Shown one piece after another: positions 18,955-45,581 of a DNA stretch of 50,394 nucleotides (position 1 is the first letter of the stretch; every line of letters starts with the position of its first letter). A program made the position numbers and the translations under genes. The stretch is from Clostridia bacterium (GTDB lineage: Bacteria > Bacillota > DULZ01): contig DULZ01000053.1 in assembly GCA_012840125.1 (NCBI GenBank), positions 1-50,394 on the forward strand, read 5' to 3'. The notes below the pieces were generated by a model. The model worked only from the letters and a program-made list of their open reading frames with translations. It made no database searches and had not been told where the DNA came from.

Positions 18955-19323
18955 TTATTCATCCTTTAACAAAAACTTCACGACCTCTTTATCCGGGATC
19001 ACCAAAGGCCGGAGCCCTTTGTCTTCCCTCATGACATTTAATTCCTCTGTTATAGGAAAAACAAAACCATATTCCCGCAATCGCTCATATCCGGCCTGAA
19101 TTCTTGGGGGAACAGCTTCGTCTTCACGCTGCAGTTTGGTTTTCCGGTCCCAAAGGTCAATATGTTGAGGACACTCTAAATGACAAAGCCAGCAATTGGA
19201 ACACTGCCAAACATCAGCCTCATCCGGACCTCTTACCGGAAAAACTGCGAAAGAGCTGTAACCTAATTTGGTTAATGGACAGACCCTAAGACATTTGCCG
19301 CATCTACGACACTGCTCCGTCAA
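18955..19323 (-). CDS. HdrC-like 4Fe-4S protein
   Basis: This 122-residue protein starts at a TTG that overlaps the end of the HdrB gene by 20 bp, with GAGGAG upstream. Two clusters are visible: C5, C8, C11, C15 and C41, C44, C47, C51. The rest is a short helical tail. Size and layout match HdrC, the electron-feeding subunit of heterodisulfide-reductase-like complexes. It is last in the seventeen-gene lipoyl operon. No HdrA flavoprotein is encoded in the window, so its electron donor is unclear; the polyferredoxins upstream are candidates. Confidence 0.85.
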   Translation of the reverse strand: MTEQCRRCGKCLRVCPLTKLGYSSFAVFPVRGPDEADVWQCSNCWLCHLECPQHIDLWDRKTKLQREDEAVPPRIQAGYERLREYGFVFPITEELNVMREDKGLRPLVIPDKEVVKFLLKDE

Positions 19324-20140
19324 TTAGCAGCACACTCCTCGCCCTCTCGAGCATGACCTCCAGAGGGGATAACCCCATGGCTATACCTACCAGTTGAGTA
19401 ATAAAATACCCAGCTATCACGGGTTTATAATATTGGGACTGCAGGCGGGCCAGCAAAAGATGGCAGTTGCCACAAGCCGTAACCATTAATTCTGCCCGGG
19501 CTTCTTCCATGGCTTTTATCCTTTGTGCTCCCATTTGGAAGGCAACCTCCTGGTGGGAGAGCTGTAGCGTAGAACCGCAGCATGCATATTCTCCCGCGTA
19601 GTGAACGATTTGAAGGCCAAGTACATCTGCCAGTTCTGCCATGGACCGGGGCCGGCGGGCATCATCAAAATCCAAAATGTAGTCCGGTCGAAACACCTGG
19701 CAGGGATAAACCAGCGCCGCCCGCTTGGACAGCTTTCTGACCACTTGCGCTGCCACTTGTTTTTTATTTTCCGCTAATACTTGTAAAACATGTTTTACCT
19801 CAACCCTGTTTTCAAAGGTTAGACCAAGTTGATTCAATTTTTGATTAATAACCCTTAATAACTGCCTGTCTTGCCGGCACATATGAATAAGGCGCCGGAA
19901 GACATTAGTGCAACCACCGCACAGGGTAATTAAACCGGCTCCTTGACGCTCCGCCAGGCTTAAATTGTAAGCTGCCATCAGCTTCCAATTTTCCGTCCTG
20001 CTTTCCACAAAGCCGCCGCAACAGATTTGTCCATCCAAGCTACAGGTTTCGATGCCTAACCTGGCCAGAACCTTTTGAGCCGACAGCTCATATTCAGGGA
20101 AACGATATAAATTTAAGCAGCCGGGAAAAAGATAGTACAT
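19304..20140 (-). CDS. HdrB-like CCG-domain protein
   Basis: This 278-residue protein has two cysteine-rich CCG domains: QICCGGF followed by CGGCTN near residues 39-77, and YACCGST followed by CGNCH near residues 188-225. In HdrB these bind noncubane 4Fe-4S clusters that split disulfides. In sulfur-oxidising bacteria HdrB/HdrC-like proteins are encoded with LbpA and the LipS lipoate genes, the same neighbours as here. The substrate could be the lipoyl disulfide itself or a sulfur species bound to it (inference). Confidence 0.87.
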   Translation of the reverse strand: MYYLFPGCLNLYRFPEYELSAQKVLARLGIETCSLDGQICCGGFVESRTENWKLMAAYNLSLAERQGAGLITLCGGCTNVFRRLIHMCRQDRQLLRVINQKLNQLGLTFENRVEVKHVLQVLAENKKQVAAQVVRKLSKRAALVYPCQVFRPDYILDFDDARRPRSMAELADVLGLQIVHYAGEYACCGSTLQLSHQEVAFQMGAQRIKAMEEARAELMVTACGNCHLLLARLQSQYYKPVIAGYFITQLVGIAMGLSPLEVMLERARSVLLIDGAVS

Positions 20141-20164
20141 CCCGCTACCTTCTTTCCATCCGGT

Positions 20165-21133
20165 TTACGGCCAGGATAAACTACAACAAAGCTCGCTGAA
20201 CCAGGTGTCAAGGCCAAGTTGTTGGGCCTTTTCCACAATTGTGTCCGTAGGGTAGGCGACACCGTTTACTCCGGCCATCAGGGCCGCTTCCTGGTAGAGA
20301 TCTTTGGCAGGTCGTGGAGGCACGGCGCATCCGAACATGAGGGGAATCGTAGGATTAGCAACTCTGGCTGCCGCCACCAACTTCCCCACGGCTTCCGGAA
20401 ACGGGGGAACCACTCCCGCCATTTCCGTCCCCGGTAAAGGATTAAGGACCACGATAACCACTGCTTCCGGCCGACAGGAAGTAACGGCGGCCAGTGCATC
20501 CAGTTCCCCTTCCCAGTTGCCGAAATAAAGCCCCGCCACAATATGAGGCACCACCGGTAGACCAACCTCCCGGAGAACATATAAAGACCGCCGGTAATCC
20601 TCAGGTGTTTTCGCCAAATGATACACTTCCCGGATAGTGCGTTCATCCCCTATGACATCCAACAGTACTTGATCCACCCCGGCTTTTTTTAGACCTGCGG
20701 CTGTCTCCGGATCAATGAGGCCGGAGTGGACGATCACCTTCAATCCTATTTGTTTTAAATATTCGATCCCAGACAAAAAGTCTTTCAGGGGAACCCTTCC
20801 ATGGGAATCAGCACCCCCGCTGATGAGCACACCCTTCGTACCCACTTCCAGCAACCGCTGCCCCAAACTAATCAAATCCAGCTCGCTTTCCACCGGCAGC
20901 ATGGACTTCAGCAGGTGGCTGTTGCAATGGGCACACTTCAAAGCACAAGCTGTACCGGTAACGCTGATCTGGACAAAAGCGTCCTCTCTATTGGTATAGT
21001 ATCGTCCTTCATATCGCTTCGGACCGGGTACGGCGAAAACAACTTTTGGCTCATGGTGGCTCCGCCTCACGGTCCAAGCCTGCCTTTGAAGTTCCGGCCA
21101 CGATTGTTGATACAGCTCCTCCAATTCCCTCAT
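20165..21133 (-). CDS. lipS2: Radical SAM lipoyl synthase component LipS2-like
   Basis: This 322-residue protein has the radical-SAM cluster C63-x3-C67-x2-C70 (CALKCAHC), the downstream GVLISGGAD glycine motif and a C-terminal SELCC. It is adjacent to a second radical-SAM protein, a lipoate ligase, a LipT-like flavoprotein and a GcvH-like carrier, the gene set of the LipS1/LipS2 pathway. In that pathway, known from archaea and sulfur oxidisers, two radical-SAM proteins insert sulfur into the octanoyl chain on the carrier in place of LipA. Family naming rests on context plus my reading of sequence. Confidence 0.75.
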   Translation of the reverse strand: MRELEELYQQSWPELQRQAWTVRRSHHEPKVVFAVPGPKRYEGRYYTNREDAFVQISVTGTACALKCAHCNSHLLKSMLPVESELDLISLGQRLLEVGTKGVLISGGADSHGRVPLKDFLSGIEYLKQIGLKVIVHSGLIDPETAAGLKKAGVDQVLLDVIGDERTIREVYHLAKTPEDYRRSLYVLREVGLPVVPHIVAGLYFGNWEGELDALAAVTSCRPEAVVIVVLNPLPGTEMAGVVPPFPEAVGKLVAAARVANPTIPLMFGCAVPPRPAKDLYQEAALMAGVNGVAYPTDTIVEKAQQLGLDTWFSELCCSLSWP

Positions 21134-21158
21134 AAAGACAACACCGCCCGGCAGGATA

Positions 21159-22226
21159 TTAATACTGGTAAAGCTGTTCCCTGATTTGCACTAGATCCTC
21201 TGCTTCCGGAGGAAATGGAAAATTGCGGATAGCTTGAGAAGGACGTTCATTACCGTAGGGGCGGTTGCAGGCTACCTGACCGTCTTTCCCCGGACAGCCG
21301 GAAGTCATAAACGCCGTACCTTCCATAACAATTTGTTCCAGTTCGTCCTTTGGTACACCAAAATCAACCAATTGGCCGTGCTCATTAAAACTCATCTGGC
21401 CCTTGCTGATCCCACAATGATTAATCAAATAGCGAGCTAATTGGATGCGCCGGTATTGCCCGATGGGGGGAAGATCCCTTTCCTCCAAATAACTGCCTTC
21501 TTCGGGAAAGAAACTGAACAAATGGATTAGAGCTCCCAGGTCTTGAGCCCGTTGGATGGCCTCCACCATATCCAATTCCGTTTCGCCCAAACCGACAATC
21601 AAATGAACGCCTGCCTTACCTTTACCAAAAACCTGGCAGGCTTCCTCCACCATCTGCCAATATCGATCCCAGACATGGGGCCCGCCGATCCCGCTGCCCC
21701 TATAAGCCTGAAAAAGCTCTGGAGTGGCACAATCAATTGCCACGCCACACCTGTCCGCTCCTGCTTCCCGCATTAAATTCAGCATTCCCGGCTTCATCAG
21801 TGTAGGAGCTATCAAGACGGATATTAAAAGGGAGGTCTCCTTTTTAAACCTTTTCACCGTAGTAAGAGCATCCTGAAAAGCGTTCGGATGGGTTATCATG
21901 CCCACACATACTCTTTCCAAATCATGGTCTTCCCGGTTAACCGCAGCAATTATCTCGTCCGTTCGGTAACGAGGCCAGGCAACCCTGATGAAGGTCTTTT
22001 CCCTCGTAGGCTTCCGCCCTCGCGCCATACCACAGTATCCACAACGGGCGATACATCCACTTGCATAAGTAGTAAGGAGATTCAACCCTTTCAAGCGGGC
22101 ATCGCGGTAAAACAGCCCCGGACGAAAACCTAGGGTAATTGCCGCCGCGAGACTGGTTTGCATATACTCCGGGCTGTCAAAATCCATGCCGGCCGGAGAG
22201 AGATTTCTTGCATCACATTGACCCAC
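21159..22226 (-). CDS. lipS1: Radical SAM lipoyl synthase component LipS1-like
   Basis: This 355-residue protein starts at a GTG seven bases after AGGAGG. The radical-SAM motif is C58-x3-C62-x2-C65 (SGCIARCGYC). A C-terminal SGCPGKDGQVACNRPYGN supplies further cysteines that could bind an auxiliary cluster used as sulfur source. The fold resembles biotin-synthase-like enzymes, and it could be misannotated as BioB. Immediate neighbours LipT (3 bp) and LipS2 (25 bp) support the lipoate role. A diverged paralogue lies at 25874-26893. Confidence 0.75.
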   Translation of the reverse strand: MGQCDARNLSPAGMDFDSPEYMQTSLAAAITLGFRPGLFYRDARLKGLNLLTTYASGCIARCGYCGMARGRKPTREKTFIRVAWPRYRTDEIIAAVNREDHDLERVCVGMITHPNAFQDALTTVKRFKKETSLLISVLIAPTLMKPGMLNLMREAGADRCGVAIDCATPELFQAYRGSGIGGPHVWDRYWQMVEEACQVFGKGKAGVHLIVGLGETELDMVEAIQRAQDLGALIHLFSFFPEEGSYLEERDLPPIGQYRRIQLARYLINHCGISKGQMSFNEHGQLVDFGVPKDELEQIVMEGTAFMTSGCPGKDGQVACNRPYGNERPSQAIRNFPFPPEAEDLVQIREQLYQY

Positions 22227-22229
22227 AGT

Positions 22230-23300
22230 TTATCCTCCTATCCGCTTGTTATTTGAATACTCAGGAAAAGCAATCCATGTTTCGCGAATCAATTGACAAA
22301 ACTGTTCCTGATCCTCGGTCCAGTTTTCCAGAAGATACCGGCGATTCATGGAAGCTTTGCTTAACATGGGCAATAGCATTTCCTGCCATTCCTGCTCATA
22401 ACCATCCAACAGGCTAAGATCATTGTTTTTCACGGCTAAGGCGGCCCATGCGCCGGCCAGTTTTCCGCTGACCACAGCTGCCATAATCCCGGCCCCGGTA
22501 ATAGGATGCGTCAGCCCTGCGGCATCGCCGCAGAGAAGGTATTTCTGTCCCCACGTCTTCTTCACAGGCCCCCCTACCGGGATTAATCCCCCTGTGCGAC
22601 GTACCACATATCTCATGTCAATCCCCAGGAAAGCCAAAAACTCATTTAACAGCGTGGCAGGCCGGTTGGTGCAACCGATACCTATATTGGCAGTACGGCC
22701 TTTGGGAAAAACCCAACCATAGCCGTACTGCCATTGGGGGTGGAAATAAACTTGCAGCCTGTCCGTCATCTTATCCTTGGGTAACACTACTTCATATTGA
22801 GCCCCAATAAGGAAATTTTCATTAGAACTACCTATCAAGCGGCCTACGACAGACCGGGGACCGTCAGCTCCGATAACCACTCCAGCATTTATTTCTATTT
22901 TTTCCCCTTCAGCCTCCACCAGAACCCCTTCGCGAGAGATAGATATAACCCTGGCTCCCATCCATACCTCTGCTCCGGCTTTACGGGCAGCCATAATCAG
23001 GTCTTTGTCGAATACAGACCGCTCCAGTACAAAACCCTTGGAAGTCATAGACTTAACCTGGCCGTCAGGCAAATAGGTATCAAGAAAAGATACGCTCAGG
23101 GCAACCTGGTCAGGGACCAGGTCCACCTCATTGATTATGTGAAAGGGCACAAATTCAGCACATTGAACCGGTTGCCCCATTACTTTCTTTTTATCCAGCA
23201 GGAGTACACCGGCACCGGTCTCCGCCGCTGTTTTCGCCGCGCTGCTCCCAGCAGGACCGGCACCTATGACCAAAATATCGTAGGTTTTTTGAACTCTCAT
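22230..23300 (-). CDS. lipT: Geranylgeranyl-reductase-family flavoprotein, LipT-like
   Basis: This 356-residue FAD protein has the N-terminal dinucleotide fold (VIGAGPAGSSAA), the family second motif VVIGADGPRSVVGR and the late FAD motif LLCGDAAGLTHPITGAGI. In LipS1/LipS2 loci a flavoprotein of this family (LipT) is a regular companion thought to supply electrons to the radical-SAM enzymes. Membrane-lipid reduction is the alternative role for the wider family, but position between the ligase (9 bp) and lipS1 (3 bp) favours LipT. Confidence 0.75.
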   Translation of the reverse strand: MRVQKTYDILVIGAGPAGSSAAKTAAETGAGVLLLDKKKVMGQPVQCAEFVPFHIINEVDLVPDQVALSVSFLDTYLPDGQVKSMTSKGFVLERSVFDKDLIMAARKAGAEVWMGARVISISREGVLVEAEGEKIEINAGVVIGADGPRSVVGRLIGSSNENFLIGAQYEVVLPKDKMTDRLQVYFHPQWQYGYGWVFPKGRTANIGIGCTNRPATLLNEFLAFLGIDMRYVVRRTGGLIPVGGPVKKTWGQKYLLCGDAAGLTHPITGAGIMAAVVSGKLAGAWAALAVKNNDLSLLDGYEQEWQEMLLPMLSKASMNRRYLLENWTEDQEQFCQLIRETWIAFPEYSNNKRIGG

Positions 23301-23309
23301 AGTCTCTAT

Positions 23310-24395
23310 TCAATCCTTTGCTTCACGTGCCGCCGTAACTGCTTCCATCACTGCCAGGCTGAAATCATCAGCGGTAAGCCCTGGTATCTGAGCATTACCA
23401 CCGGAAAAACACTGCCTCACCACATCCCGAATAACCGCTGCTTCCGCCCGGCAATCCTTCAAAGCAGCCTCCAAATCCATGATGATCCGGCCGGGATAGG
23501 CAAAAAAGTCGCCGGTGATAAGCGCGGACTTGATCCGGTTACCGGGTACATCGACCACTAAGGAAGTCCTGATTAAGCCCCCCTCACCTTTGTAAATAGC
23601 ACTTACGGATTTGCGCTGGCTTTCTTTTTTATGAACCCGGTCAATCCAATCCCGGGATGCAAAATATGGTAACCGCTCCGACAGCATTTTCTCTTCCTGC
23701 TCGGTTAAACCACTCTCTTCAAACTTCACTCCCAGCACTTCGGCAAAGCCTTTAGCGATGGCATCCTTAACGGCTTCACCGGCGGGAACATACCCCAGAA
23801 GCTCTCTCAAACAGACTACCCTTTCTCTTATGGAGCTCACTTCTTTCCCTACCAGCTTTTTCACGGGTATGTTCAACGCATTGAGCATGGTATCCACGTT
23901 AAAATCTACCAATACCGTACCTTGGAAAAGGAAAGCATGTTCCAGTTCCGTTCCCCCGGTGCCTGAAATCTTGCGACCGTCCACTTCTATATCATTCCGG
24001 GGACGAAACCGGGCTTTGACACCCAAATACCCCAATCCCTTGATTACTCCCTGGCATAGATAGGAATATAGTTCCTCAACAGGGCCATGAAACAGGGGAT
24101 CGTTTTTCAGCGCAATAATTTCCCATCCAAGGGTGGTTTCATCGAAATATATCGCTCCGCCGCCGGTAATGCGACGGTTGATGTCAATTTGATGTTGACG
24201 ACAGTAGTCAACATGAATTTCTTTATCAACTTCCTGAAAAAAGCCTACTAATGCACAATGAGGACGAAATTGCAAGAAGCGCAAGGTATTGGGAATTAAA
24301 CCCTGACTGCAGGCAGTTAGAACAACTTCGTCAAGTGTCATATTCTCCGCTGCCGTTTTATGTCCGAGATCCAGCTTTCGCCAAGTAGGTTTCAT
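23310..24395 (-). CDS. lplA: Lipoate/octanoate-protein ligase (LplA type)
   Basis: The ATG at 24395 lies nine bases after GGAGAGGGAG and gives 361 residues. The ligase signature RRITGGGAIYFDE is at about 74-86, and NDIEVDGRKISGTG carries the probable catalytic lysine K142. A C-terminal accessory domain of about 110 residues is present, so this is a full-length LplA-type enzyme. It would attach octanoate or lipoate to the GcvH-like carrier encoded in the same operon. Confidence 0.88.
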   Translation of the reverse strand: MKPTWRKLDLGHKTAAENMTLDEVVLTACSQGLIPNTLRFLQFRPHCALVGFFQEVDKEIHVDYCRQHQIDINRRITGGGAIYFDETTLGWEIIALKNDPLFHGPVEELYSYLCQGVIKGLGYLGVKARFRPRNDIEVDGRKISGTGGTELEHAFLFQGTVLVDFNVDTMLNALNIPVKKLVGKEVSSIRERVVCLRELLGYVPAGEAVKDAIAKGFAEVLGVKFEESGLTEQEEKMLSERLPYFASRDWIDRVHKKESQRKSVSAIYKGEGGLIRTSLVVDVPGNRIKSALITGDFFAYPGRIIMDLEAALKDCRAEAAVIRDVVRQCFSGGNAQIPGLTADDFSLAVMEAVTAAREAKD

Positions 24396-24469
24396 CCAAC
24401 ATAACTCCCTCTCCATAATGCCTGTTTCTACTGCCGGGCTTCCACAAATCACACACGGCTCCAAACCAG

Positions 24470-25414
24470 CTAATGAACAAGACAACACCTTTCTTTTACT
24501 TTCAGATCTAACCCCAAGTCTTTCAAAAGGCTAATGGCCTCTTCGGAAGGACGGGCAATTTCATTAACTCCCGCATTAAGGGCATATTGTTCCAGCAAAG
24601 AAGCCATGGATGGGGCGTTATTAGTACCGGCAAATATTAGTTTTCTTTTCGGGTTAAGAATGCGAGCAATAGCCACCAACTTGGCACATTGCTCAAGTTG
24701 TTCACCGTTTACCGGCTTACTACCCGATGAGTTATCCAGCAGCGTCAAATGGCAATAATCCAATTGAGATAACGCCATCAGCAAATCCAGCTCCCGCTCA
24801 CACTCTCCGCTAATAACAAATACAAAAGAAACGTTTTTTGCTTGTTGGCAAATGGCTTTCAAACGGGCCATCAGACTTTCCAAATCCTCGTTTGCCTGAC
24901 TTCCGTTTCCATTGAACATTAGTTTCGCCGAGACAACGATCGTTAAATTTGATAAGCCTCCGTTCAAGGGCAAGACATGCTCCACAAAATCTAGATTATT
25001 GGTGATGATTGAGACCCGGCAATGTATGGAATTAAGATAATTCAGGGTTTCCGAATATCCACTCAAATGGCATTTTGAGTTCTCGTAGGTGATAGCAATT
25101 AGTCCTGAACATTGACCGGGGTTGAGGCGCTCTCCTACAGCTCTTAAAGCGGCTGCACTATTGACCGTTTGCGTATCGCTATTCCCGGTCTGGCAGCATG
25201 CAGTGCAATTAGCGGCGGAGCCCTTCCCGTCAGCCGTAACGACCGTAAATTGCTGAAGCTTTGTACCAGCCAAGGCCATTTCCGTCAGGAGGGGTTGGCA
25301 ACTTGAGATATGTATTTCACTTTCAAAATTCTTTTTCCGCTCCAGCCATGCACGATGAAGCAGAACACTAAGCGGGCTATTCTGTAACGTCTCAGGCTCA
25401 TTTGCCTTCCACAT
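24470..25414 (-). CDS. Degenerate LipS2 paralogue lacking the full radical-SAM motif
   Basis: The ATG at 25414 after AGGGGGAT gives 314 residues. The C-terminal 60 residues follow LipS2 closely (NPKRKLIFAGTNN and GVNEIARPSEEA against NPTIPLMFGCAVP and GVNGVAYPTDTI, then LGLDL...CC). Where LipS2 has CALKCAHC, this protein has S66-x3-C70-x2-C73 (SAANCTACC), so the first cluster cysteine is serine. Classical radical-SAM chemistry is therefore doubtful. It sits between the AhpD-like gene and the ligase. A scaffold or lipoyl-handling partner role is inference. Confidence 0.75.
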   Translation of the reverse strand: MWKANEPETLQNSPLSVLLHRAWLERKKNFESEIHISSCQPLLTEMALAGTKLQQFTVVTADGKGSAANCTACCQTGNSDTQTVNSAAALRAVGERLNPGQCSGLIAITYENSKCHLSGYSETLNYLNSIHCRVSIITNNLDFVEHVLPLNGGLSNLTIVVSAKLMFNGNGSQANEDLESLMARLKAICQQAKNVSFVFVISGECERELDLLMALSQLDYCHLTLLDNSSGSKPVNGEQLEQCAKLVAIARILNPKRKLIFAGTNNAPSMASLLEQYALNAGVNEIARPSEEAISLLKDLGLDLKVKERCCLVH

Positions 25415-25445
25415 TATCACTATCCCCCTCTCGGTCAATAATGTA

Positions 25446-25481
25446 GAGCAGGCAGGGAATCGCCCTGCTCCGACCCCTGCC
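25446..25481. repeat. Overlapping alternative hairpins in the lipoyl operon
   Basis: GAGCAGG (25446-25452) pairs with CCTGCTC (25464-25470), while the overlapping GGCAGGG (25451-25457) can pair with CCCTGCC (25475-25481). The two hairpins exclude each other. They lie in the 80-bp gap between the AhpD-like gene and the LipS2 paralogue and could form a processing or attenuation site. Confidence 0.5.
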
Positions 25482-25494
25482 CACTGTTTTCCCT

Positions 25495-25851
25495 TTAATC
25501 TACCCAGAAACTCTCCACTGCACTGGTAAGATAGGTACAAGCATAAGCAAAGGTTTTGGCACCACCGAAAGGAATTGCCACACTGGCTGCTTCGTAAATT
25601 TCTTCTTTAGTGGCTCCTTCTTTAATAGCATTGTAGGTATGGATGCAGATGCAGTATTTGCACGGAGTGCGAACACCTTGAGCCAGCATCATCAATTCCT
25701 TGGTTTTGGCATCAAAAATACCATAGTTGTTCGCTGCGTGTTTTTCCAAGTCAAGGTAAGCTTGAATGGTATTGGGCATTGCTTCCTGAGCTTTGGCTAA
25801 ACCTTCTTCAAATTCTTTTAAGACCTGTTGAGCTAACGTTAATTCTGCCAT
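25495..25851 (-). CDS. AhpD-like carboxymuconolactone-decarboxylase-family protein
   Basis: This 118-residue protein starts with ATG after AAGGAGG. The active-site motif is C64-x2-C67-x3-H71 (CKYCICIH), the peroxidatic/resolving pair and histidine of AhpD-type thiol oxidoreductases. In Mycobacterium, AhpD is reduced by a lipoylated E2 protein, so a lipoyl-dependent thiol role fits the neighbouring lipoyl carrier and lipoate synthesis genes. Aromatic lactone decarboxylation is the other activity in this family, but the cysteine pair argues against it. Confidence 0.85.
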   Translation of the reverse strand: MAELTLAQQVLKEFEEGLAKAQEAMPNTIQAYLDLEKHAANNYGIFDAKTKELMMLAQGVRTPCKYCICIHTYNAIKEGATKEEIYEAASVAIPFGGAKTFAYACTYLTSAVESFWVD

Positions 25852-25873
25852 GAATAAGCCCTCCTTAAGATGG

Positions 25874-26893
25874 TTATTTGCTTGATTTTAAGTAACGCAA
25901 ATCTTCTTCGGTGATACCAGGTATGAACCCAAGCAACTTGAAATCATAGCTGACATCGATGTCCCGGAAATCAACTCCTTCCCTTTGGCATTTCTTGGCT
26001 GCCAGTTTCCACTCTTCTTCCCAATTCACGGAGAAAAACTCTTTCTTGGCCTGTTGGGCTTCATCTGCTGCCAGGGGTTGGTGGTAATTCCTAGTTCCAC
26101 CGCAGCTGTTATCATGCCCGGGCCAGTTCTTGAGGCTGCCACCTGTTTCGTGAAAAGGTATGCCAAGCTCCAACAGCTCCATCAATTTATTGGGATGAAT
26201 GCCAAACTCAAAAACAGACCCAAACTCGTTGAACTGCATCTGCCTCATAGTAGCCAGCTGCCGGTGAATCAAATACCTGCCCATCTGTAACCGGCGATAT
26301 TTGCCGATACTACACGGCTTAATGCCTAATGCTTTATTTTCCCTGACTGAAAAAATGTTTGTTTCAGCTCCTGCATCGTCGATCATTTGCACCACTGATA
26401 AAAACTCTTCTTCTGTTTCTCCTAAACCGGCAAACAAGTTCACAGTCACCTTCCGGCCACCAAAAACAGCTACGGCTTCTTTCAAGGTTTCCCAGTAAGT
26501 CGCCCAAAGGTCACCACCGGAAGTCCGGTGATAATGCTTGAACAACTGCTTGCCGGCTATGTCCAGGGGAATAATCACCTGGGAAACACCCCTAGTTTTT
26601 GTCTCCACCAGGAAATCTCTATCCACTAACAGCGGATCCACCACCAGTACCAATCCTGCTGCGGAAAAACCCTGCAGCTTCTGAAGTCCGGCCAAAATCA
26701 CCTCCTTCGACTGTTTTTTACTTAATAGGGGAAGATAGATAGTATTGTCCTGTGACATCTTCAATTGATCAAAGTCTGTTGCCAACTCGTGTCCGGGCGG
26801 ACAGCCGCTGTCACCCTCTAACAAGTAAAGCAAGCTCGAATCTTGAATCAAGTCCTCCAAATAACCGGCAACACCGCAAGGTTCCCAAAACAA
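25874..26893 (-). CDS. Degenerate LipS1 paralogue without radical-SAM cysteines
   Basis: It starts at a TTG after AAGGAGGAAGG (339 residues). From about residue 130 on it follows LipS1: FGGRKVTVNLFAGLGETEEE against FGKGKAGVHLIVGLGETELD, then IGKYRRLQMGRYLIHR against IGQYRRIQLARYLINH. At the N-terminus, where LipS1 has SGCIARCGYC, this protein has SGCPPGHELA, keeping only the first cysteine. It also has about 60 extra C-terminal residues. It should not bind a radical-SAM cluster in the usual way. Pairing with the LipS2 paralogue suggests a duplicated, repurposed LipS1/LipS2 couple. Confidence 0.75.
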   Translation of the reverse strand: MFWEPCGVAGYLEDLIQDSSLLYLLEGDSGCPPGHELATDFDQLKMSQDNTIYLPLLSKKQSKEVILAGLQKLQGFSAAGLVLVVDPLLVDRDFLVETKTRGVSQVIIPLDIAGKQLFKHYHRTSGGDLWATYWETLKEAVAVFGGRKVTVNLFAGLGETEEEFLSVVQMIDDAGAETNIFSVRENKALGIKPCSIGKYRRLQMGRYLIHRQLATMRQMQFNEFGSVFEFGIHPNKLMELLELGIPFHETGGSLKNWPGHDNSCGGTRNYHQPLAADEAQQAKKEFFSVNWEEEWKLAAKKCQREGVDFRDIDVSYDFKLLGFIPGITEEDLRYLKSSK

Positions 26894-26938
26894 GGGCCTT
26901 CCTCCTTTGCATCAGACTTCCTGCTTCTCAACCGGAGA

Positions 26939-27379
26939 TCAGCCACCGGTCTTCTTGGCCTCCAGTTTACGCAACCTTGTCAGTTCAGGTATAAACCAAT
27001 TCCCAACCGTGTCGGCTCCCATTAAGTTATCTAATTCTGCCGGATTGTCCATCTTAAGCTTCGCCAACCACCCGGCGCCATAAGGATCTTGATTGACTAA
27101 GGTGGGATCAAATTCCAGCTCTTCATTAAACTCAATGACACTGCCGGAAACGGGTGCATAAACCCTGCCCACCCATTTCCCGGATTCTACGGACATAAAG
27201 GGTTTGTCCTGGATCGTTTTCTTGCCCGGCTCCACCGGCTCTACAAACACCAGATCTCCCGCACTCTTGACGGCATATTCGGTCATACCCACGGTGACCA
27301 CATCGCCTTCCACTTTCGCCCAAAAATGCCTTTTGTCGTACAGCAAATCATCAGGAAATAGATAACCTTCAATGATCAT
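26939..27379 (-). CDS. GcvH-like lipoyl carrier protein (LbpA type)
   Basis: This 146-residue biotinyl/lipoyl-domain protein starts with ATG after GAGGAGG. GcvH features are VGMTEYAVKSAGDLVFVE and the modification site VESGKWVGRVYAPVSG with lysine K68. The ESGKWVG form differs from the ESVKA of ordinary GcvH and, as I recall, matches LbpA-type carriers of Hdr-like sulfur oxidation. No glycine-cleavage genes (gcvT, gcvP) are nearby. It is probably the central carrier of the operon, lipoylated by the ligase and LipS proteins encoded downstream. Confidence 0.85.
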   Translation of the reverse strand: MIIEGYLFPDDLLYDKRHFWAKVEGDVVTVGMTEYAVKSAGDLVFVEPVEPGKKTIQDKPFMSVESGKWVGRVYAPVSGSVIEFNEELEFDPTLVNQDPYGAGWLAKLKMDNPAELDNLMGADTVGNWFIPELTRLRKLEAKKTGG

Positions 27380-27402
27380 GTTCTATCCTCCTCACAGCCA
27401 GA

Positions 27403-28557
27403 TTAAGGTTTGGCTGACTTTAATACCAATTCCGTTAAATCTTGCACCCTGATCCTAACTTTGTGTTTCCTGGCTGCATTCTGCAAGGTTCGTTTACACT
27501 GCTGGCAACTGGAGAGGAGTGTTTTCGCACCGGTTGCTTGTCCTTCCAGCACCCTACGTAGTCCAATCCTTTCCACCAAATCACCGTCGACAGCCTGCAA
27601 ATTGCCGCCACCGCCACAGCAGTTTGCATACTCCCTGTTCTTTGGCATTTCTACAAACTCAATACCGGGAATACTGTTGATCACTTGCCGGGGCGCGTCG
27701 TAAACACCGCTATTCCTTCCAAGATCGCAAGGATCGTGATAAGTAACTGTGTCCCGGACCTCATGGAGTTCCAGCTTTCCTTGATTGATCAGCTCCAGCA
27801 AAAACTGGCTGGCGTGCATAACGTCAAAGGGCAGCTCGTATCCCAACACTTGAGGGTAGGTGTCCTTCAGGGTGTGGTAACAAGAGGGACAAGTGGTCAC
27901 CACCCTTTTGGCCCCCAGCTTTTGAATTTTACGGACATTCCTCTGCACCATTTCCTTGCCTTGTGAAAACGCGCCGGCACCGATGAGCGGAAAACCGCAG
28001 CATTCTTCCTCTTGCCCCAACAATCCGAAGGAAACTTCCGCCAGGTCCAACAGTTGAACAAAGGACTGGGGAACGGCATAAACCGCCGGGTAGAGGGAAC
28101 TGGAACAACCGGTGAAATACAGCACCTCTGCCGGTTGCCCGACATGGGCTTTGAATTTATCGTCGAGAGAATCCAGCCACATTTCCCGGTTCCCCTGTTC
28201 ATCGCCGGTGATATTAGCATGGTCAGCAATAGTGGCAGTCAATTGTTTCATGTTATCGGGTGCCAGGCCACAGCCGGCAATATGCTGCCGTAATTCTTGC
28301 CACGCCCGTACCGTGTCAATGGAAGTAGAACAAACCTCCCGGCATTTACCGCATAAAGTACATTGAAAAACTCGTTCAACTTGCTTCTCGGAAATAGAAC
28401 CGTTTATGATTTCCCTGGCCATCACCATTTTGGCTCTGGGACTGGCAGATTCCCAACCTAATTCCTGGTAAACCGGACATTCTACTTTACAGTAACCGCA
28501 TCTGGCACAAATCAAAGCTTCCCGGGCCAGACTGTCAAAAAAACTCTCATGTTGCAC
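27403..28557 (-). CDS. HdrD/GlpC/GlcF-like iron-sulfur CCG protein
   Basis: This 384-residue protein starts at a GTG after GGGAG. N-terminal ferredoxin motifs (CARCGYCKVECP and CTLCGKCREVCS) are followed by two CCG domains: ECCGFPLIGAG with CPSCYHTL, then NCCGGGGN with CQQCKRTL. This is the HdrD/GlcF plan, combining electron wires and disulfide- or quinone-linked clusters. It pairs with the flavoprotein gene 3 bp upstream, as GlcF pairs with GlcD. In this operon it could exchange electrons with the lipoyl carrier (inference). Confidence 0.88.
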   Translation of the reverse strand: MQHESFFDSLAREALICARCGYCKVECPVYQELGWESASPRAKMVMAREIINGSISEKQVERVFQCTLCGKCREVCSTSIDTVRAWQELRQHIAGCGLAPDNMKQLTATIADHANITGDEQGNREMWLDSLDDKFKAHVGQPAEVLYFTGCSSSLYPAVYAVPQSFVQLLDLAEVSFGLLGQEEECCGFPLIGAGAFSQGKEMVQRNVRKIQKLGAKRVVTTCPSCYHTLKDTYPQVLGYELPFDVMHASQFLLELINQGKLELHEVRDTVTYHDPCDLGRNSGVYDAPRQVINSIPGIEFVEMPKNREYANCCGGGGNLQAVDGDLVERIGLRRVLEGQATGAKTLLSSCQQCKRTLQNAARKHKVRIRVQDLTELVLKSAKP

Positions 28558-28560
28558 CGG

Positions 28561-29994
28561 TCATCTCCCCCTTCCAATACCCAGGCTCCTGCTTAATCCA
28601 TTGGCCATCCCGGCACCTAGGGAGAAGACGGCCGGATGAAGCAAGGCGGGTGGCCGGTAGAACTTACCGGGATTCATAATGTTATAGGGATCAAGCTGGG
28701 TTTTTCTGTTCAGCCACCGGCTTCTTATATCTGCGCCGTAGACCCGGTGAACGTAGACCGCATTCCATAACCCTGTTCCATAGGGTCGACCACCTAAGGC
28801 TAAGGCAGCATCGTAAACCATTTTGGTCTTAGCCAGTAAAAACAGGTATTCCGGCATTTTGGTTTCATCAGCATAGTATAAGACCAGGCAGTTTATTTTG
28901 CCGTCATTCATAAAATGAGCGTAAACCGCTGTTCTTTGCCCCAATTTCTTAACCGTTTGGCTAAAGGCATCCAACTTGGCAAGGGGGAGAATGACTTCCG
29001 AAGCCAAGAGAGTTGGCCCGCCTCGTTTAATTTTTAAAGCGTAAAAACGCTGTTCCCATTCTTCATCCGCTACTTCTCGATCCAGGATCATGGCTCCGGT
29101 TTCCCGGGCGACCCGGGTTATTTCTCGTTCCCCTAATTGGACCTCATCTTCCGTGCCTTGATAGGTAACGGTCAACATTTCATAGTCAGTGCAGTGGGTA
29201 CCAAAACCTAATTCAGACTGGAGCTCAAAGAAGACACGATTGGCAAAATGCATATTATAAGGTTTGGCACTTGTCTCTTCCAGCTTCATAGCTGCTTTTG
29301 CCAAGTCATCCAGGGATTTAAATCCTAAGGCGAAATGCCTAATAACCTCAGGTTTCTGCCGGATCCGGAACTTAATCCTGGTAACCACGCCCAGTGTCCC
29401 TTCTTTACCCATGAACCACTCGAGCGGGTACTCACCTTCTCTGGTGGAATGGATCACCTTTCCCCCCGGCAACACTATTTCCGCTTCTTCCACCAAGTCA
29501 TGAAAACATCCATACTGTACACTGCCAATCCCATAACCTTCCATGGAAAACCATCCGCCGACGGTAGAGCTAAGCCCACTGGAAGGGCAAGAGCACACGG
29601 CCATACCTTCCCTGTTGAGTTCTTCCTCCACTTCAATCCAAGGGGTACCGCACCAGACTTCAACCACTTTGGTATCAGACTCCAGGCTCAAAATGCCTCG
29701 CAGGCTGTTCAAATCCAGTACTATCCCTTGATTCACCGGTACGGTATTGAGATAAGCAGTCGTGGCGGCAGCCCGAGGAGTTACCGGGGTTTTTTGGTCC
29801 TGTGCAAAACTTAATACTTCTTGGATATCTTCCACGGCCGTTGGTTTCACGATGGCATCGGGCATCGTATGAAACAGGATTTGGGTCATCACCTTGGGCA
29901 CGGGTGCCAGGTCCCGGGTATAAAATTTCCTTTCAAATTCATCCATGGTCATTTTGGCACCCAGCTTATCTGCCAGTATTTGATAATCAGCCAC
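28561..29994 (-). CDS. FAD-linked oxidase, GlcD-like, with altered phosphate loop
   Basis: This 477-residue protein starts at a GTG after GGGGGGGATGAG. It has the vanillyl-alcohol-oxidase-type fold: KPTAVEDIQEVLSFAQ, later FMGKEGTLGVVT, and the GlcD-type ending DPYNIMNPGKFY. The FAD pyrophosphate loop, normally RGGGTSLSGG, reads RAAATTAYLNT here, so flavin binding may be unusual. A sister protein at 42798-44192 keeps the normal loop. Usual substrates are 2-hydroxy acids. Confidence 0.82.
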   Translation of the reverse strand: MADYQILADKLGAKMTMDEFERKFYTRDLAPVPKVMTQILFHTMPDAIVKPTAVEDIQEVLSFAQDQKTPVTPRAAATTAYLNTVPVNQGIVLDLNSLRGILSLESDTKVVEVWCGTPWIEVEEELNREGMAVCSCPSSGLSSTVGGWFSMEGYGIGSVQYGCFHDLVEEAEIVLPGGKVIHSTREGEYPLEWFMGKEGTLGVVTRIKFRIRQKPEVIRHFALGFKSLDDLAKAAMKLEETSAKPYNMHFANRVFFELQSELGFGTHCTDYEMLTVTYQGTEDEVQLGEREITRVARETGAMILDREVADEEWEQRFYALKIKRGGPTLLASEVILPLAKLDAFSQTVKKLGQRTAVYAHFMNDGKINCLVLYYADETKMPEYLFLLAKTKMVYDAALALGGRPYGTGLWNAVYVHRVYGADIRSRWLNRKTQLDPYNIMNPGKFYRPPALLHPAVFSLGAGMANGLSRSLGIGRGR

Positions 29995-30007
29995 CTCATC
30001 CCCCCCT

Positions 30008-31300
30008 TTACGCTTTCTCCACCGCTTTGAACAGCAGAGACAGATATGGTTTCAGCAATACCGGTTTATCTACTAAGGAAATCAAAGCCTGGCTATCACA
30101 GGTAGCTTTCAAGTCTCTCAGGGAAAAGCCGCTCTTTAGCAGGTGCAACATGGGGCCAAATCCGTTGAACTTTCCGACGACCTGTATTCCTACTAACCTA
30201 TCTTCGTCAACAATTAGTCGTTTATAGGTAGCACTTTCTGTGCTTTCCACCACCCTAGCACTTTCCGGTGCCGTTTGCTCGGTTAACCCTACGGCCACTC
30301 CTTTGGTGCCGTAAATATCAATTAACAAAACACCGTAAGAACCTTCATATTCCTCCTGACCTCCGGCACAATTGAGACCGGCCAGTTTACCCTGCCGGCA
30401 GGCAGGCTGCCAAAGCATACTCAAGACCTTCCGGTGAGAAAACAGGTCCTCCGTTTCCACACAGTCGCCACAAGCGTAAATCAATTCATGGCTGGTTTGC
30501 AGGTAACGATCTACTTTAAGGCCGCCGGTAGTCCCCAGTTCCAATCCCGCTTCCTGTGCCAGCTTCACATTGGGTCTGACACCTACGGCCCAAAGGACCA
30601 AATCGCACCCGATGACCCTGTTGCTGGTTCTAACTCCGGCAACCCTTTCCGTGCCCAGGACTTCCTCAACCCTTTCACTAACGAGCACCTGAATACCCCG
30701 GTCCTCCAGCATCTTGGTCAAATATTGCGCCGGTTTCTTATCGAAGGACTTAGGCAGGATCCAGTCCATCATTTCAATGATGGTAACTTCCCGGTATCCT
30801 CTTTCCTTTAAGGCAATGGCCGTCTCGATCCCGATGGCTCCCGAACCGACGACAACTGCCGCTTGGGCCGGATAAGCCATGATCCGCTGGGCATCCAAAA
30901 GGGTCTTCAGAGTGAAATTGCCCGGCAAATGAACACCCGGCACAGGCGGGATAATCGCTTGGCTGCCGGTAGCAATAATTAACTTGTCAAAGCTGATCTT
31001 TCTCTTGCCCAAAAAAACCTTTTGCTGTTCCGGCTCAATGCGGGTCACGGGTTTGCCTAGCATGAGCTGAATATTCGCCTGCTCATAAGTTTGCTGCTTT
31101 TTAACCAGCACATCTTCTGCCGAAAGATAACCTGCCAGGTAATCAGGAAGAGCACAAGCTGAATATTCCAGAAAGGGTTCCTCAGAAATGAGGACGATCT
31201 TGGCTTCCGGCAACCTCTCCCGGACAGCAAAAGCTGCATTATTGCCTGCCACTCCGTTACCGATGACCACTACCTTCCGGGGGATATCTCTTACAGCCAT
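30008..31300 (-). CDS. FAD/NAD(P)-dependent oxidoreductase, CoA-disulfide-reductase/Nox type
   Basis: This 430-residue protein has FAD motif GNGVAG at 14-19, NAD motif GSGAIG at 152-157 and a C-terminal FAD motif (LIYACGDCVE). The single redox cysteine C49 in EYSACALPDYLAG matches the active cysteine of CoA-disulfide reductases and NADH oxidases. It lacks the CxxxxC pair of dihydrolipoamide dehydrogenase. ATG overlaps the preceding gene by 10 bp. It probably links the complex to NAD(P)H or to a thiol/persulfide. Confidence 0.85.
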   Translation of the reverse strand: MAVRDIPRKVVVIGNGVAGNNAAFAVRERLPEAKIVLISEEPFLEYSACALPDYLAGYLSAEDVLVKKQQTYEQANIQLMLGKPVTRIEPEQQKVFLGKRKISFDKLIIATGSQAIIPPVPGVHLPGNFTLKTLLDAQRIMAYPAQAAVVVGSGAIGIETAIALKERGYREVTIIEMMDWILPKSFDKKPAQYLTKMLEDRGIQVLVSERVEEVLGTERVAGVRTSNRVIGCDLVLWAVGVRPNVKLAQEAGLELGTTGGLKVDRYLQTSHELIYACGDCVETEDLFSHRKVLSMLWQPACRQGKLAGLNCAGGQEEYEGSYGVLLIDIYGTKGVAVGLTEQTAPESARVVESTESATYKRLIVDEDRLVGIQVVGKFNGFGPMLHLLKSGFSLRDLKATCDSQALISLVDKPVLLKPYLSLLFKAVEKA

Positions 31301-32517
31301 TTCTCTTCCCCCTTTTCACCGGCGGTCATTTTTGCGGTGGTGATTTGGATACCTAGTTCCTCCAGTTCAAAGCTATCCCATGGTGCTCCGGTGGCATAAG
31401 ACAACAGCTTCGCGGCAAGCTCAGCAGCCTCTTTCCGGCTAAAATGACCGGACCAGTCCAGCCCTGCTGCTTCGAGAGCTATCCAAAAAGGATCCATGAA
31501 CCCCTCCACCCTGCCGGTATATAGCGGCTGTCTCCGCATAGCCATCACCCGCCAAAAATCACCTGCAGAAAGCTCATATTCCGGCTTAATCAAGCAGGTA
31601 TTTTGAGCGATCGCTTCCATCACCCATCGCCAGGGAATACCATAAGAATTCCCGAAATGGCGCAGGCGAAGTAACTGCTTCCCCGTTAATTGCCGGGGTC
31701 TTTCCGGGGCACATTCCTCTGAAAACGGTTCTAAAACAAATTTGTGTTCTTCACCGGGAACGGGGACACACCGTGCAGTATGCCAGGGAGACAAAAAACG
31801 CCCTGTCCCACTCAGGTGAGATAAATCATCTTGACATCTTTGACAAATCTTTAAACAAAGATCCAAAAAGTGTTCCGGATGAGCCAACGCTACCTTGCCC
31901 CGGCCGTTCGCAACAATGCCCTTTAACAAGACCTTGGCAAAAAGATTGCCTAACCCCAATTCCCCGGCATCAAAATAATAATTAACAATTAGTCCTTGCC
32001 CCGGCCAGGAGACTGACCCTGGGCCAATCACGGCAACTTCGGGGTCCGGCTCATCAACCTCATGGATGATGGCATCCGTACTTTCACAAGTGGTCAATTC
32101 CCATATAGATGAGGCATCGTGCAACTTGATTTCATCATCGCTGATCATGATGTAAACTGGGTTTTTGGCCCGGCCAAGGATGATTAATTGTTCCAAACCG
32201 GCGTACCTGAGCTTCGCTCCCAAGCCACCTACGACAGGTTCAGTAACAAAACAACCGGTGAGGGGACTTAAGTAAGTAACCGACCAAGTACCGGAACCAG
32301 GCACCCCGGAGCCTGTCAAAGGCCCGGTATTAATGAAAACCACATTCTGACACTCCGCACCATGGAGCTTGCTCAAAAGTGACCGGTGGAATTCACTTGC
32401 GGACCACATCCCCGCTCCTGCCAGAAGCCTCCCTTGCTTGGAAACTTCCACTTTATTAACTTTTGTAGCACCATTATTCAAATCAACGATGCCTACCGTC
32501 ATCGCGGTTTCAATCAC
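31291..32517 (-). CDS. Shortened aldehyde:ferredoxin oxidoreductase homologue
   Basis: The start is a GTG at 32517 after GGGAGGAGG, overlapping the ferredoxin gene by 8 bp (408 residues; typical AOR about 600). Residues 1-210 follow AOR domain 1: GPLTGSGVPGSGTWSV, SPLTG, LGAKLRYAGLEQLIILGRA. The family motif AGRGGVGAVMGSKNLK reads AGELGLGNLFAKVLLK, losing the arginine-glycine pair that holds the pterin. The expected 4Fe-4S cysteines are replaced by C221, C225 and C228 in non-standard spacing, and about 200 residues of domains 2-3 are missing. It may bind no tungstopterin; a structural role is possible. Confidence 0.75.
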   Translation of the reverse strand: MIETAMTVGIVDLNNGATKVNKVEVSKQGRLLAGAGMWSASEFHRSLLSKLHGAECQNVVFINTGPLTGSGVPGSGTWSVTYLSPLTGCFVTEPVVGGLGAKLRYAGLEQLIILGRAKNPVYIMISDDEIKLHDASSIWELTTCESTDAIIHEVDEPDPEVAVIGPGSVSWPGQGLIVNYYFDAGELGLGNLFAKVLLKGIVANGRGKVALAHPEHFLDLCLKICQRCQDDLSHLSGTGRFLSPWHTARCVPVPGEEHKFVLEPFSEECAPERPRQLTGKQLLRLRHFGNSYGIPWRWVMEAIAQNTCLIKPEYELSAGDFWRVMAMRRQPLYTGRVEGFMDPFWIALEAAGLDWSGHFSRKEAAELAAKLLSYATGAPWDSFELEELGIQITTAKMTAGEKGEEKWL

Positions 32518-33001
32518 ACCGGGGGACCTCCTCCCTGCCGGCAAGCCAGCTCTGTGCTGCCCGGGCTTGTCTCTTGTCACGGCTAATTTGAGAAAGCTCT
32601 TCCCAACTGATGGCTTGCCTGGGGCAAGCTTTGAGGCATACCGGATCGCCGTCACAATAGTTGCAGGTCAAAAACACTTCCCGCTCCGGATCCAACACCG
32701 GTATATCAAAAGGACAGGCAACCATGCACGCACCGCAGCCAAGGCACTTGCTAAGGTTTCTGATCACGAGACCCGTCATTGGTTCCCTACTGATGCACTC
32801 CATCAAGCATGCGGCCTGGCAGGCAGGTTCAGCACACTGCCGGCAGGTTAGAGTAAAACCCATAAGAAACCGGCGGTGTTGCTGGACTCTGATCAGCCCT
32901 TGACTGGGTTGACAAGCGCTCTTCTGTTTAATGGAACACAGTGCCTGGCAGAGCCCGCACCCATTGCACCGCTCCTGATTGATGAACAATACCTTCGCCA
33001 T
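32510..33001 (-). CDS. 4Fe-4S polyferredoxin (AOR/formate-dehydrogenase-associated type)
   Basis: The ATG at 33001 after GAGGGTGG gives 163 residues. Cysteine groups are CNGCGLCQALCS, CRQCAEPACQAACL, CLGCGACMVACP and CNYCDGDPVCLKACP, four clusters. Its position directly before the AOR homologue mirrors the small ferredoxin partners of tungsten enzymes. The C-terminal tail is basic and lacks further motifs. Confidence 0.88.
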   Translation of the reverse strand: MAKVLFINQERCNGCGLCQALCSIKQKSACQPSQGLIRVQQHRRFLMGFTLTCRQCAEPACQAACLMECISREPMTGLVIRNLSKCLGCGACMVACPFDIPVLDPEREVFLTCNYCDGDPVCLKACPRQAISWEELSQISRDKRQARAAQSWLAGREEVPRCD

Positions 33002-33030
33002 TGATACCACCCTCTGCCTTAGAGGTACCG

Positions 33031-33561
33031 CTAATCCATCCACTGCATAACCATGGGCATTTTTCTCCTGCTGTTAGAGGCATATCTTTGACGCACGTAA
33101 GCGGAAATCTCTTCCACGGTACCTACCAGGATGGCTTCCGCCATACAGGCCTGCTGGCATGCTGTTCTCTTGCCGTCGGAAAGCCGGTGCAAGCATAGTT
33201 GACATTTCTGCATCTTGCCGTCTGCTCCGAACTGGGGAACACCAAAAGGACAAGCTATTAAACAGGACCGGCAACCGATACATTTTTTTCGATCCACGGT
33301 GACAATACCATCCTCTACCCTTTTCGTAATCGCACCGGTAGGGCAGGCTTTCTCACATGCCGGTTCGCCGCAGTGCATACAGGGTATGGGCAAGAACATC
33401 AGTGTATCCCTGTCCTTACCGCTGATTTCCGTTTCGGTGACCATGATGTATCGCGGCCCGGCCGGCAGGTCATTTTCGAGCTTGCATGCTATTTCACAAG
33501 CCCGGCAGTTCACACACCGGTTTGCATCTACATAAATGGCATATTGTTTCCTCGTCATCAC
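33031..33561 (-). CDS. Four-cluster 4Fe-4S electron-transfer subunit
   Basis: This 176-residue protein has groups CVNCRACEIACK, CMHCGEPACEKACP, CIGCRSCLIACPFGV and CQLCLHRLSDGKRTACQQACM. The plan is the same as DmsB/NrfC subunits. It lies 9 bp after the catalytic molybdopterin gene. No NrfD-like anchor follows, so the pair probably works in the cytoplasm and hands electrons to the other soluble proteins of the operon. Confidence 0.92.
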   Translation of the reverse strand: MMTRKQYAIYVDANRCVNCRACEIACKLENDLPAGPRYIMVTETEISGKDRDTLMFLPIPCMHCGEPACEKACPTGAITKRVEDGIVTVDRKKCIGCRSCLIACPFGVPQFGADGKMQKCQLCLHRLSDGKRTACQQACMAEAILVGTVEEISAYVRQRYASNSRRKMPMVMQWMD

Positions 33562-33570
33562 CGGCCCCCC

Positions 33571-40291: not shown

Positions 40292-41557
40292 TCAACTTAA
40301 TGCCTTCTCCAACAGCTGTACCGGATGCATTACCTGCAAAGGCAGGTTCTCCTTTCTTAGTCCATAGCTGATTTGCATCATACATGCCGGGCAGCAGGTA
40401 ACAACCGTATCTGCTTTCGTATCTTTGATGTTTTGAATTTTTTGCGCCAGGATCTTTCCGGACAGGTTTTGATGAAAGAATTCATAAGCTCCTGCTCCAC
40501 CGCAACAACGATTGGAATCTTTCATTTCTACCAGTTCAACACCGGGTACACTGGTGATAACAGTGCGCGGCTCCTCCGTTATCTTCTGTCCCCTTACTAA
40601 ATGACAAGGCTCATGGTATGTTACCCTGCAATTAACTTGTTTTAAGGGCATGGCTTCCCACGTTTTCTGTTCCGAAACTAATAGTTTGTTTAAGTCAATC
40701 ACCATACTGCTAAATAGCCGTGCCTTTTCCGCGTAATCAGGATCGCCGGCCAGCAGTTCCCCGTATTCCAACAAGGCACTGCCGCAGGTGGCACAATCGG
40801 TGGTAACATACTTTATTTCCTGGTTCAAAAAGTAATCAATATTGAGTTTAGCCAGGCGCTTGGCCTCTTCAAAATCCCCGGCACTTTGATGAGGCCCGCC
40901 GCAGCATTGGACTTCCGGAACGACTATGCCAATGTTCAGCTTCTGCAATACCCTAACGGCCGAAGCTGCCACTTGACTGAAGAAATGATTGGTAGCACAC
41001 CCAACAAAAACTCCTACTTTATACCGAGGCTGAGGCAAATCATGCACCAGTTCATAAAGCATGTCTCGAAAACTCTTGGGAGGGATGACTGGCATTCTCT
41101 CCTCCATACCTTTCAACTGCCCCATCAAATTTAAAACTCCGGATTTATTCACCAACCACTTGATGCCACTCTTTTGATAAAAACGCATCACTTTGGTGCC
41201 CACCTTGAGATTACGTTTATTGGACAGCCCGGCACGATAAGCCAGCCTATAATAAAGAGGAAATCCTACCTGAGCGCCAGCCTGGCTGCGTGCATACATC
41301 ATGATTTTGTCTGTTTCTACGGAAGCAGGACAATTAGACACACAGGCCCGGCACAACAGGCAATTCCCGATATACTCATTGACACTTTTATCCCTACCCC
41401 AAGCAAATTTCCCTTGCTCCAGGCCTTTGACCAACCAAATTCGTCCCCTGGCCACCGTCCCTTCCCTACCATCGACTTTAAAGGTAGGACAGACCTCTTG
41501 ACAAAAACCGCATTTGTTACATTTACCTAATTCCTGCTTAATTAACTTGTAGTCCAC
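40292..41557 (-). CDS. glcF: Glycolate/lactate oxidase iron-sulfur subunit GlcF-like
   Basis: The GTG at 41557, nine bases after AGGAG, is preferred over a TTG at 41566 that touches the ribosome site (421 residues). Two N-terminal ferredoxin motifs (CNKCGFCQEVCPTF and CLLCRACVSNCPAS) precede two CCG domains (VQCCGGPHQS with CATCGSAL, NRCCGGAGAY with CPACMMQI). It carries electrons from the flavoprotein subunits to the quinone pool or another acceptor. Third and last in glcDEF order after genes at 44192 and 42785. Confidence 0.87.
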   Translation of the reverse strand: MDYKLIKQELGKCNKCGFCQEVCPTFKVDGREGTVARGRIWLVKGLEQGKFAWGRDKSVNEYIGNCLLCRACVSNCPASVETDKIMMYARSQAGAQVGFPLYYRLAYRAGLSNKRNLKVGTKVMRFYQKSGIKWLVNKSGVLNLMGQLKGMEERMPVIPPKSFRDMLYELVHDLPQPRYKVGVFVGCATNHFFSQVAASAVRVLQKLNIGIVVPEVQCCGGPHQSAGDFEEAKRLAKLNIDYFLNQEIKYVTTDCATCGSALLEYGELLAGDPDYAEKARLFSSMVIDLNKLLVSEQKTWEAMPLKQVNCRVTYHEPCHLVRGQKITEEPRTVITSVPGVELVEMKDSNRCCGGAGAYEFFHQNLSGKILAQKIQNIKDTKADTVVTCCPACMMQISYGLRKENLPLQVMHPVQLLEKALS

Positions 41558-41576
41558 TGTCTTCAACTCCTAACTC

Positions 41577-42785: not shown

Positions 42786-42797
42786 ACAATCACCCCC

Positions 42798-44192: not shown

Positions 44193-44218
44193 TCCTTCCA
44201 GAAAGCCGGATCCTTACG

Positions 44219-45520: not shown

Positions 45521-45581
45521 GGGTTTGCCTCCTCAAATTTCTCTTTACGGTAATTCCTAGGCCGGTCCCTTCGAACCACAA

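Follow-up and report, generated by a model that had tools for sequence, protein, structure and literature searches.

A degenerate relative of LipS2 encoded beside a lipoyl carrier and an AhpD protein in Clostridia

The operon and its lipoate-assembly genes

The window analyzed here is a stretch of 50,394 nucleotides from a Clostridia bacterium (contig DULZ01000053.1). On its reverse strand lies an operon that codes for a molybdenum enzyme of the DMSO/formate dehydrogenase family, ferredoxins, GlcD-like and GlcF/TfrB-like proteins, HdrB/HdrC-like subunits and a lipoyl carrier (Table 1). Within this operon, the gene of interest is an open, coding-like reading frame that starts with TTG, has a strong ribosome-binding site (aaaggagg) ahead of the start and matches the codon usage of its operon; its product is referred to as P0001. 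At 4 kb downstream, the same operon encodes genuine LipS2 and LipS1, and the ligase and the LipT-like oxidoreductase separate them from a second, degenerate set of LipS-like genes that includes P0001. This arrangement of ligase, LipT-like and LipS genes is reminiscent of the lpl(AB)-lipS1/lipS2-lipT assembly set described before (PMC10332631). Since the genome also encodes LipA and a second GcvH, the carrier of the operon looks like a dedicated one.

Several other features of the region were recorded. In a 454-aa protein of the operon, the match to aldehyde ferredoxin oxidoreductase (AOR) is confined to the N-terminal domain, the C-terminal AOR domain not being detected, and an equivalent of ca. 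430 aa is found at the same operon position in locus L035 (see below). A sigma-54 activator gene is located upstream of the operon, and activators of a similar kind adjoin the LbpA gene in two other loci (L024 and L034). Further along, there is a second GlcD/GlcE/GlcF-like set together with a lactate-racemase-like (Lar_N) protein and TRAP-transporter genes, which suggests hydroxy-acid oxidation.

Table 1. Coordinates of the features in the window and the evidence for their assignment
Feature	Position	Strand	Evidence
Operon (Mo enzyme to HdrC-like subunit)	18955-35796	-	
HdrC-like subunit	18955-19323	-	HdrC-like match
HdrB-like subunit	19304-20140	-	TIGR03288, E 2.5e-45
True LipS1, CALKCAHC and terminal CC intact	20165-21133	-	NF053742, E 5e-63
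True LipS2, CIARCGYC and auxiliary cysteines intact	21159-22226	-	NF053743, E 1e-68; alignment
LipT-like FAD oxidoreductase (geranylgeranyl-reductase superfamily)	22230-23300	-	TIGR02032 above cut-off; place in lpl-lipT-lipS cluster
Lipoate-protein ligase, sLpl(AB)-type	23310-24488	-	Pfam LplA-B_cat and Lip_prot_lig_C
LipS1-like degenerate paralogue	24470-25414 from ATG (mechanical ORF to 25540)	-	Weak NCBIfam LipS1 match; 10/41 LipS1-conserved columns
AhpD/CMD protein, E-x11-CxxCxxxH pattern	25495-25851	-	AhpD core domain; PDB AhpD 5dik; relatives 82-90% identical
P0001, LipS2-like putative pseudoenzyme, 339 aa	25874-26893	-	NCBIfam LipS2, E 3e-26 (below cut-off); alignments; orthologue P0012
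GcvH/LbpA-like lipoyl carrier, lipoyl-lysine motif ESGKWVG	26939-27379	-	Pfam GCV_H, E 3e-39; adjoins LipS2-like gene in 4/4 loci
Iron-sulfur subunit with two CCG domains (TfrB/GlcF-like)	27403-28557	-	Pfam CCG and Fer4; same position in L035
AOR N-domain protein	31291-32655	-	N-terminal AOR domain match
Sigma-54 activator	36925-38922		
GlcD/GlcE/GlcF-like set, Lar_N protein, TRAP transporter	40292-46871	-	

Descent from LipS2 and distribution of the family

The initial annotation took P0001 for a LipS1 paralogue with a LipS2 paralogue next door, and profile searches reverse the two names. In NCBIfam, P0001 matched the LipS2 model (NF053743, 92.5 bits, cut-off of 270 not reached) and one related radical-SAM model only, and its neighbor gave a weak match to LipS1 (NF053742, E 6e-6). 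The NF053743 cut-off alone is not decisive, because the true LipS2 of the same operon also falls short of it (231.7 bits). By BLAST, P0001 is 27% identical to this local LipS2 over 244 aa and has no significant match to LipS1; the likeness to one of the operon's LipS proteins was thus correctly seen and only its name has to be changed. P0001 is homologous to LipS2, as known from Thermococcus (TK LipS2), the bacterial sLpl(AB)-LipS1/S2 pathway and NF053743, across the C-terminal two thirds of the barrel, and its gene lies in the same operon neighborhood of lpl, lipT and lipS genes. In contrast to LipS2, it has a shorter N-terminal region and a C-terminal extension, lacks CxxxCxxC and the auxiliary ligands, and scores far under the family cut-off. 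Likewise, the radical-SAM domain of Pfam (PF04055) was matched with 22.1 bits (gathering cut-off 29.5), over the second half of the profile only. Structure models were built from five-sequence alignments and are weak. That of P0001 (mean pLDDT 69.6, pTM 0.73) has a poor N-terminal part, and its best Foldseek matches were partial ones to radical-SAM proteins (NifB, lipoyl synthase), with TM-scores by query length of ca. 0.3 to 0.42. At this alignment depth, the cluster region stayed below pLDDT 50 in both the P0001 model and a control model of true LipS2. Altogether, we are confident, on the strength of the sequence comparisons, that P0001 is a divergent and degenerate LipS2 relative that has lost its catalytic ligands.

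The conserved AhpD neighbor, used as a lead, allowed us to find L035, a contig of a Syntrophomonadaceae metagenome-assembled genome (MAG). Its operon is near-identical to that of the window, in the order Mo enzyme, two ferredoxins, AOR N-domain protein, NAD/FAD oxidoreductase, GlcD-like, CCG protein, LbpA-like, LipS2-like, AhpD, ligase and HdrB-like. The LipS2-like protein encoded there (P0012) is 39% identical to P0001 over the full length, extension included. Two further Clostridia, G261 (L024) and G402 (L034), have the order LbpA, AhpD and LipS2-like, followed by true LipS2; true lipS2/lipS1 genes adjoin the LipS2-like one. The protein is rare. Its four known members come from four distantly related bacteria, and each is encoded by a gene that adjoins those of an LbpA-like carrier and an AhpD. 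Of the 399 genomes sampled from the phylum, only two, the window genome and G261, have an AhpD of this close subfamily (E < 1e-30), and both possess a LipS2-like gene. Among the loci examined in 120 relatives of the Syntrophomonadaceae genome, the LipS2-like protein appeared in that genome only. The other LipS2-like matches in the phylum genomes and in these 120 relatives, at the loci examined, were true LipS2 with CxxxCxxC; one match without the motif, in G399, resembles the MSMEG_0568-type radical-SAM family instead, judged by eye. No match was obtained when genome contigs were searched with P0001 alone or viral contigs with the alignment. Incidentally, several genomes of the phylum (L004/L014, L006/L015, L003 and related loci) carry two types of LipS2 (CxxxCxYCGL and CxxxCxFCxQ-like), each adjoining its own LipS1.

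In the Syntrophomonadaceae MAG (completeness not stated), neither LipS1 nor LipA was detected and the search for LipS2 returned only the degenerate P0012, a negative outcome that by itself carries little weight. The P0001 family differs from LipS2 in that it occurs with LbpA and AhpD even where LipS1 and LipS2 go undetected. This bears on the idea that P0001 is a prozyme-like accessory subunit that pairs with LipS1 or LipS2, activating the lipoyl synthase or steering it to LbpA. The genuine lipS1, lipS2, lipT and lpl genes that share the operon here, and the true lipS2/lipS1 genes next to the LipS2-like gene in G261 and G402, would fit such a subunit, but we consider it unlikely because this one genome has the motif-less orthologue with no detectable LipS1, true LipS2 or LipA.

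In the phylogenetic tree, the partners of P0001 are orthologues from other genomes rather than the local LipS2, and a recent local duplication of LipS2 as its origin was rejected (AU p = 2e-7). The four LipS2-like proteins form one clade with weak support (68/28) and long branches. They also share the C-terminal extension, since none of 1,000 shuffles matched the alignment score in most cross-pairs and 2 of 1,000 did in the weakest. For the LipS1-like neighbor, a local duplication was neither supported nor rejected (AU p = 0.225, branch length 10). In this protein, two cluster cysteines out of three are still there, as is the terminal CC at the auxiliary site, but the third auxiliary cysteine and the two invariant histidines have been lost. 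No orthologue of it was found beside the other three LipS2-like genes and it has so far been seen in the window genome only, which indicates that the two degenerate genes were not passed on together; the LipS1-like gene may have been added late or be a copy in decay. The earlier proposal that a whole LipS1/LipS2 pair had been duplicated is thus not supported, given both the rejected local origin of P0001 and this absence at the other three loci.

The LipS2-like proteins are only 24 to 40% identical to each other, indicating fast evolution, whereas the AhpD proteins encoded beside them are much more conserved (Table 1), a difference that could reflect weak constraint. Such fast divergence, together with a LipS1-like neighbor that is more eroded (10 of 41 conserved columns retained) and confined to this genome, is what a decaying gene without selected function might look like. 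However, the P0001 reading frame is intact with operon-like codon usage, and a full-length orthologue in another lineage has conserved the extension and the operon position, so that decay appears quite improbable.

Lost and retained sites

We surveyed the ligands in an alignment of the LipS2-like proteins with 24 true LipS2, all of which have the three cysteines of the cluster and the four ligands of the auxiliary cluster (100% conserved). The CxxxCxxC motif, present in every true LipS2 aligned and in the relatives P0005 and P0013, is absent from P0001 and from its orthologue P0012. The initial annotation had described the loss of two out of three radical-SAM cysteines. The disappearance of the motif is borne out, but not the residue-by-residue count: C31 of P0001 falls at the first cluster cysteine in one alignment and at the third in another (the N-terminal alignment is ambiguous), and P0012 has no cysteine at the position of this residue in SGC, so the proper reading is that the motif is absent. 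The auxiliary-cluster ligands, a loss that had gone unnoticed, are also missing. At the columns of C107, H208, C311 and C320 (numbering of the local LipS2), P0001 has Y, N, G and K and P0012 has M, H, T and Y, i.e., only H208 is kept in the latter. In Thermococcus LipS2, the auxiliary [4Fe-4S] cluster is held by C85, H178, C276 and C279; a change in any of these ligands markedly lowers activity, greatly so for the Cys-to-Ala changes, and no activity is left in the triple CxxxCxxC variant (PMC9585515). Given the loss of both the auxiliary [4Fe-4S] site and the radical-SAM cluster, neither SAM cleavage by the normal route nor sulfur insertion into octanoyl-lysine would be expected, and the prediction that P0001 is inactive as a lipoyl synthase is well supported. 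The description as a pseudo-enzyme holds up: all the catalytic ligands are gone, an independent orthologue has suffered the same loss, and the place in the operon has been kept.

On the other hand, P0001 retains GLGETE (the SAM-side motif), the two tryptophans (W..W), the RxxQ.xRYLI segment and MQFNEFG. The preserved GLGETE, and the CxxxCxxC still found in two relatives, might point to continued radical-SAM activity at a non-canonical cluster site, but with the three-cysteine cluster motif missing from both P0001 and P0012 this is hardly credible. The C-terminal extension, put at about 60 residues before, is real; it comprises ca. 50 residues (about 290 to 339) beyond the end of true LipS2, and the whole-protein Pfam scan detected no domain in it. 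P0001 and P0012 also have in common WPGHDN and nearby residues, located at the loop of the LipS2 auxiliary cluster. Residues of this WPGHDN...RN type might equip the emptied barrel as a new, non-radical enzyme acting on the lipoyl arm (e.g., thioester transfer or hydrolysis), and the Mo, FAD and CCG oxidoreductases of the operon could load a carrier. However, the motif is found in two sequences only and nothing points to a cofactor or substrate, which makes a new enzyme distinctly unlikely.

The LipS2-like proteins of G261 and G402 have an intact CxxxCxxC and lack the auxiliary ligands, save that P0013 has one cysteine aligning close to the last of these positions. As these relatives have the same extension, they represent an intermediate state, and from the four members we tentatively infer an order that they suggest, in which the auxiliary cluster was lost first and the radical-SAM cluster second; four members, in a weakly supported clade with long branches, do not suffice to settle it.

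A possible partner of the lipoyl carrier and AhpD

The AhpD protein of the operon has, in alignment with the AhpD structure 5dik, residues E52, C64, C67 and H71 in its translation, which we take to be those of the active site. In mycobacteria, lipoylated proteins act as reductants of AhpD (PMC8945050), and LbpA is a lipoyl carrier essential to Hdr-like sulfur oxidation (PMC6067878). These precedents, together with the full CxxCxxxH present here, are the basis for a redox module in which the dedicated lipoyl carrier would exchange electrons with AhpD and the Hdr-like/CCG subunits. As in the LbpA system of sHdr sulfur oxidizers, a GcvH-like lipoyl carrier is encoded next to Hdr-like subunits and accompanied by a dedicated set for lipoate assembly. 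The operon of the window differs by having a TfrB/GlcF-like CCG protein, HdrB/HdrC-like subunits, a Mo enzyme of the DMSO/formate dehydrogenase family and the AOR N-domain protein, and the LbpA literature, in its available part, names no LipS2-derived partner or AhpD. The couple formed by AhpD and dihydrolipoamide succinyltransferase in Mycobacterium tuberculosis offers the other parallel, a CxxCxxxH AhpD beside a lipoylated protein. In contrast to it, AhpC was not seen among the genes of the operon, the context has the look of an anaerobic redox metabolism, and a LipS2-derived protein is interposed.

Because a ligand-less relative of LipS2 has been kept beside a lipoyl carrier and an AhpD in four bacteria, it probably serves the carrier of the operon in a new role other than making lipoate. 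The strict linkage to both genes makes a lipoyl-binding scaffold plausible and our leading hypothesis, i.e., the pseudoenzyme would be a non-catalytic partner of LbpA and AhpD, a reading to which we give an even chance. The lineage would have started from LipS2, a sulfur-inserting radical-SAM enzyme, and lost the auxiliary [4Fe-4S] site, the source of sulfur, and then the radical-SAM cluster, keeping the C-terminal two thirds of the barrel and gaining the extension. The barrel that formerly accepted octanoyl-lysine may now hold the lipoyl arm of LbpA or present it to the dithiol protein AhpD, and possibly also to the Hdr-like and the FAD/Mo redox subunits; carrier binding, AhpD docking and the direction of electron flow are what we infer for this scaffold. 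More tentatively, the pseudo-radical-SAM protein might have become a fixed subunit of the redox module formed by the lipoyl carrier and AhpD, and its living intermediates would record the sequence of losses.

If true, this would be a traceable case of a radical-SAM enzyme turned into a non-catalytic carrier-binding protein, and the gene would mark a lipoyl carrier-AhpD redox module that the available parts of the cited LbpA and AhpD literature do not describe. It would also call for caution in genome surveys, where genes of this kind should not be counted as lipoyl synthases. With its four members, the set would allow the transition from enzyme to scaffold to be put to the test on small soluble proteins.
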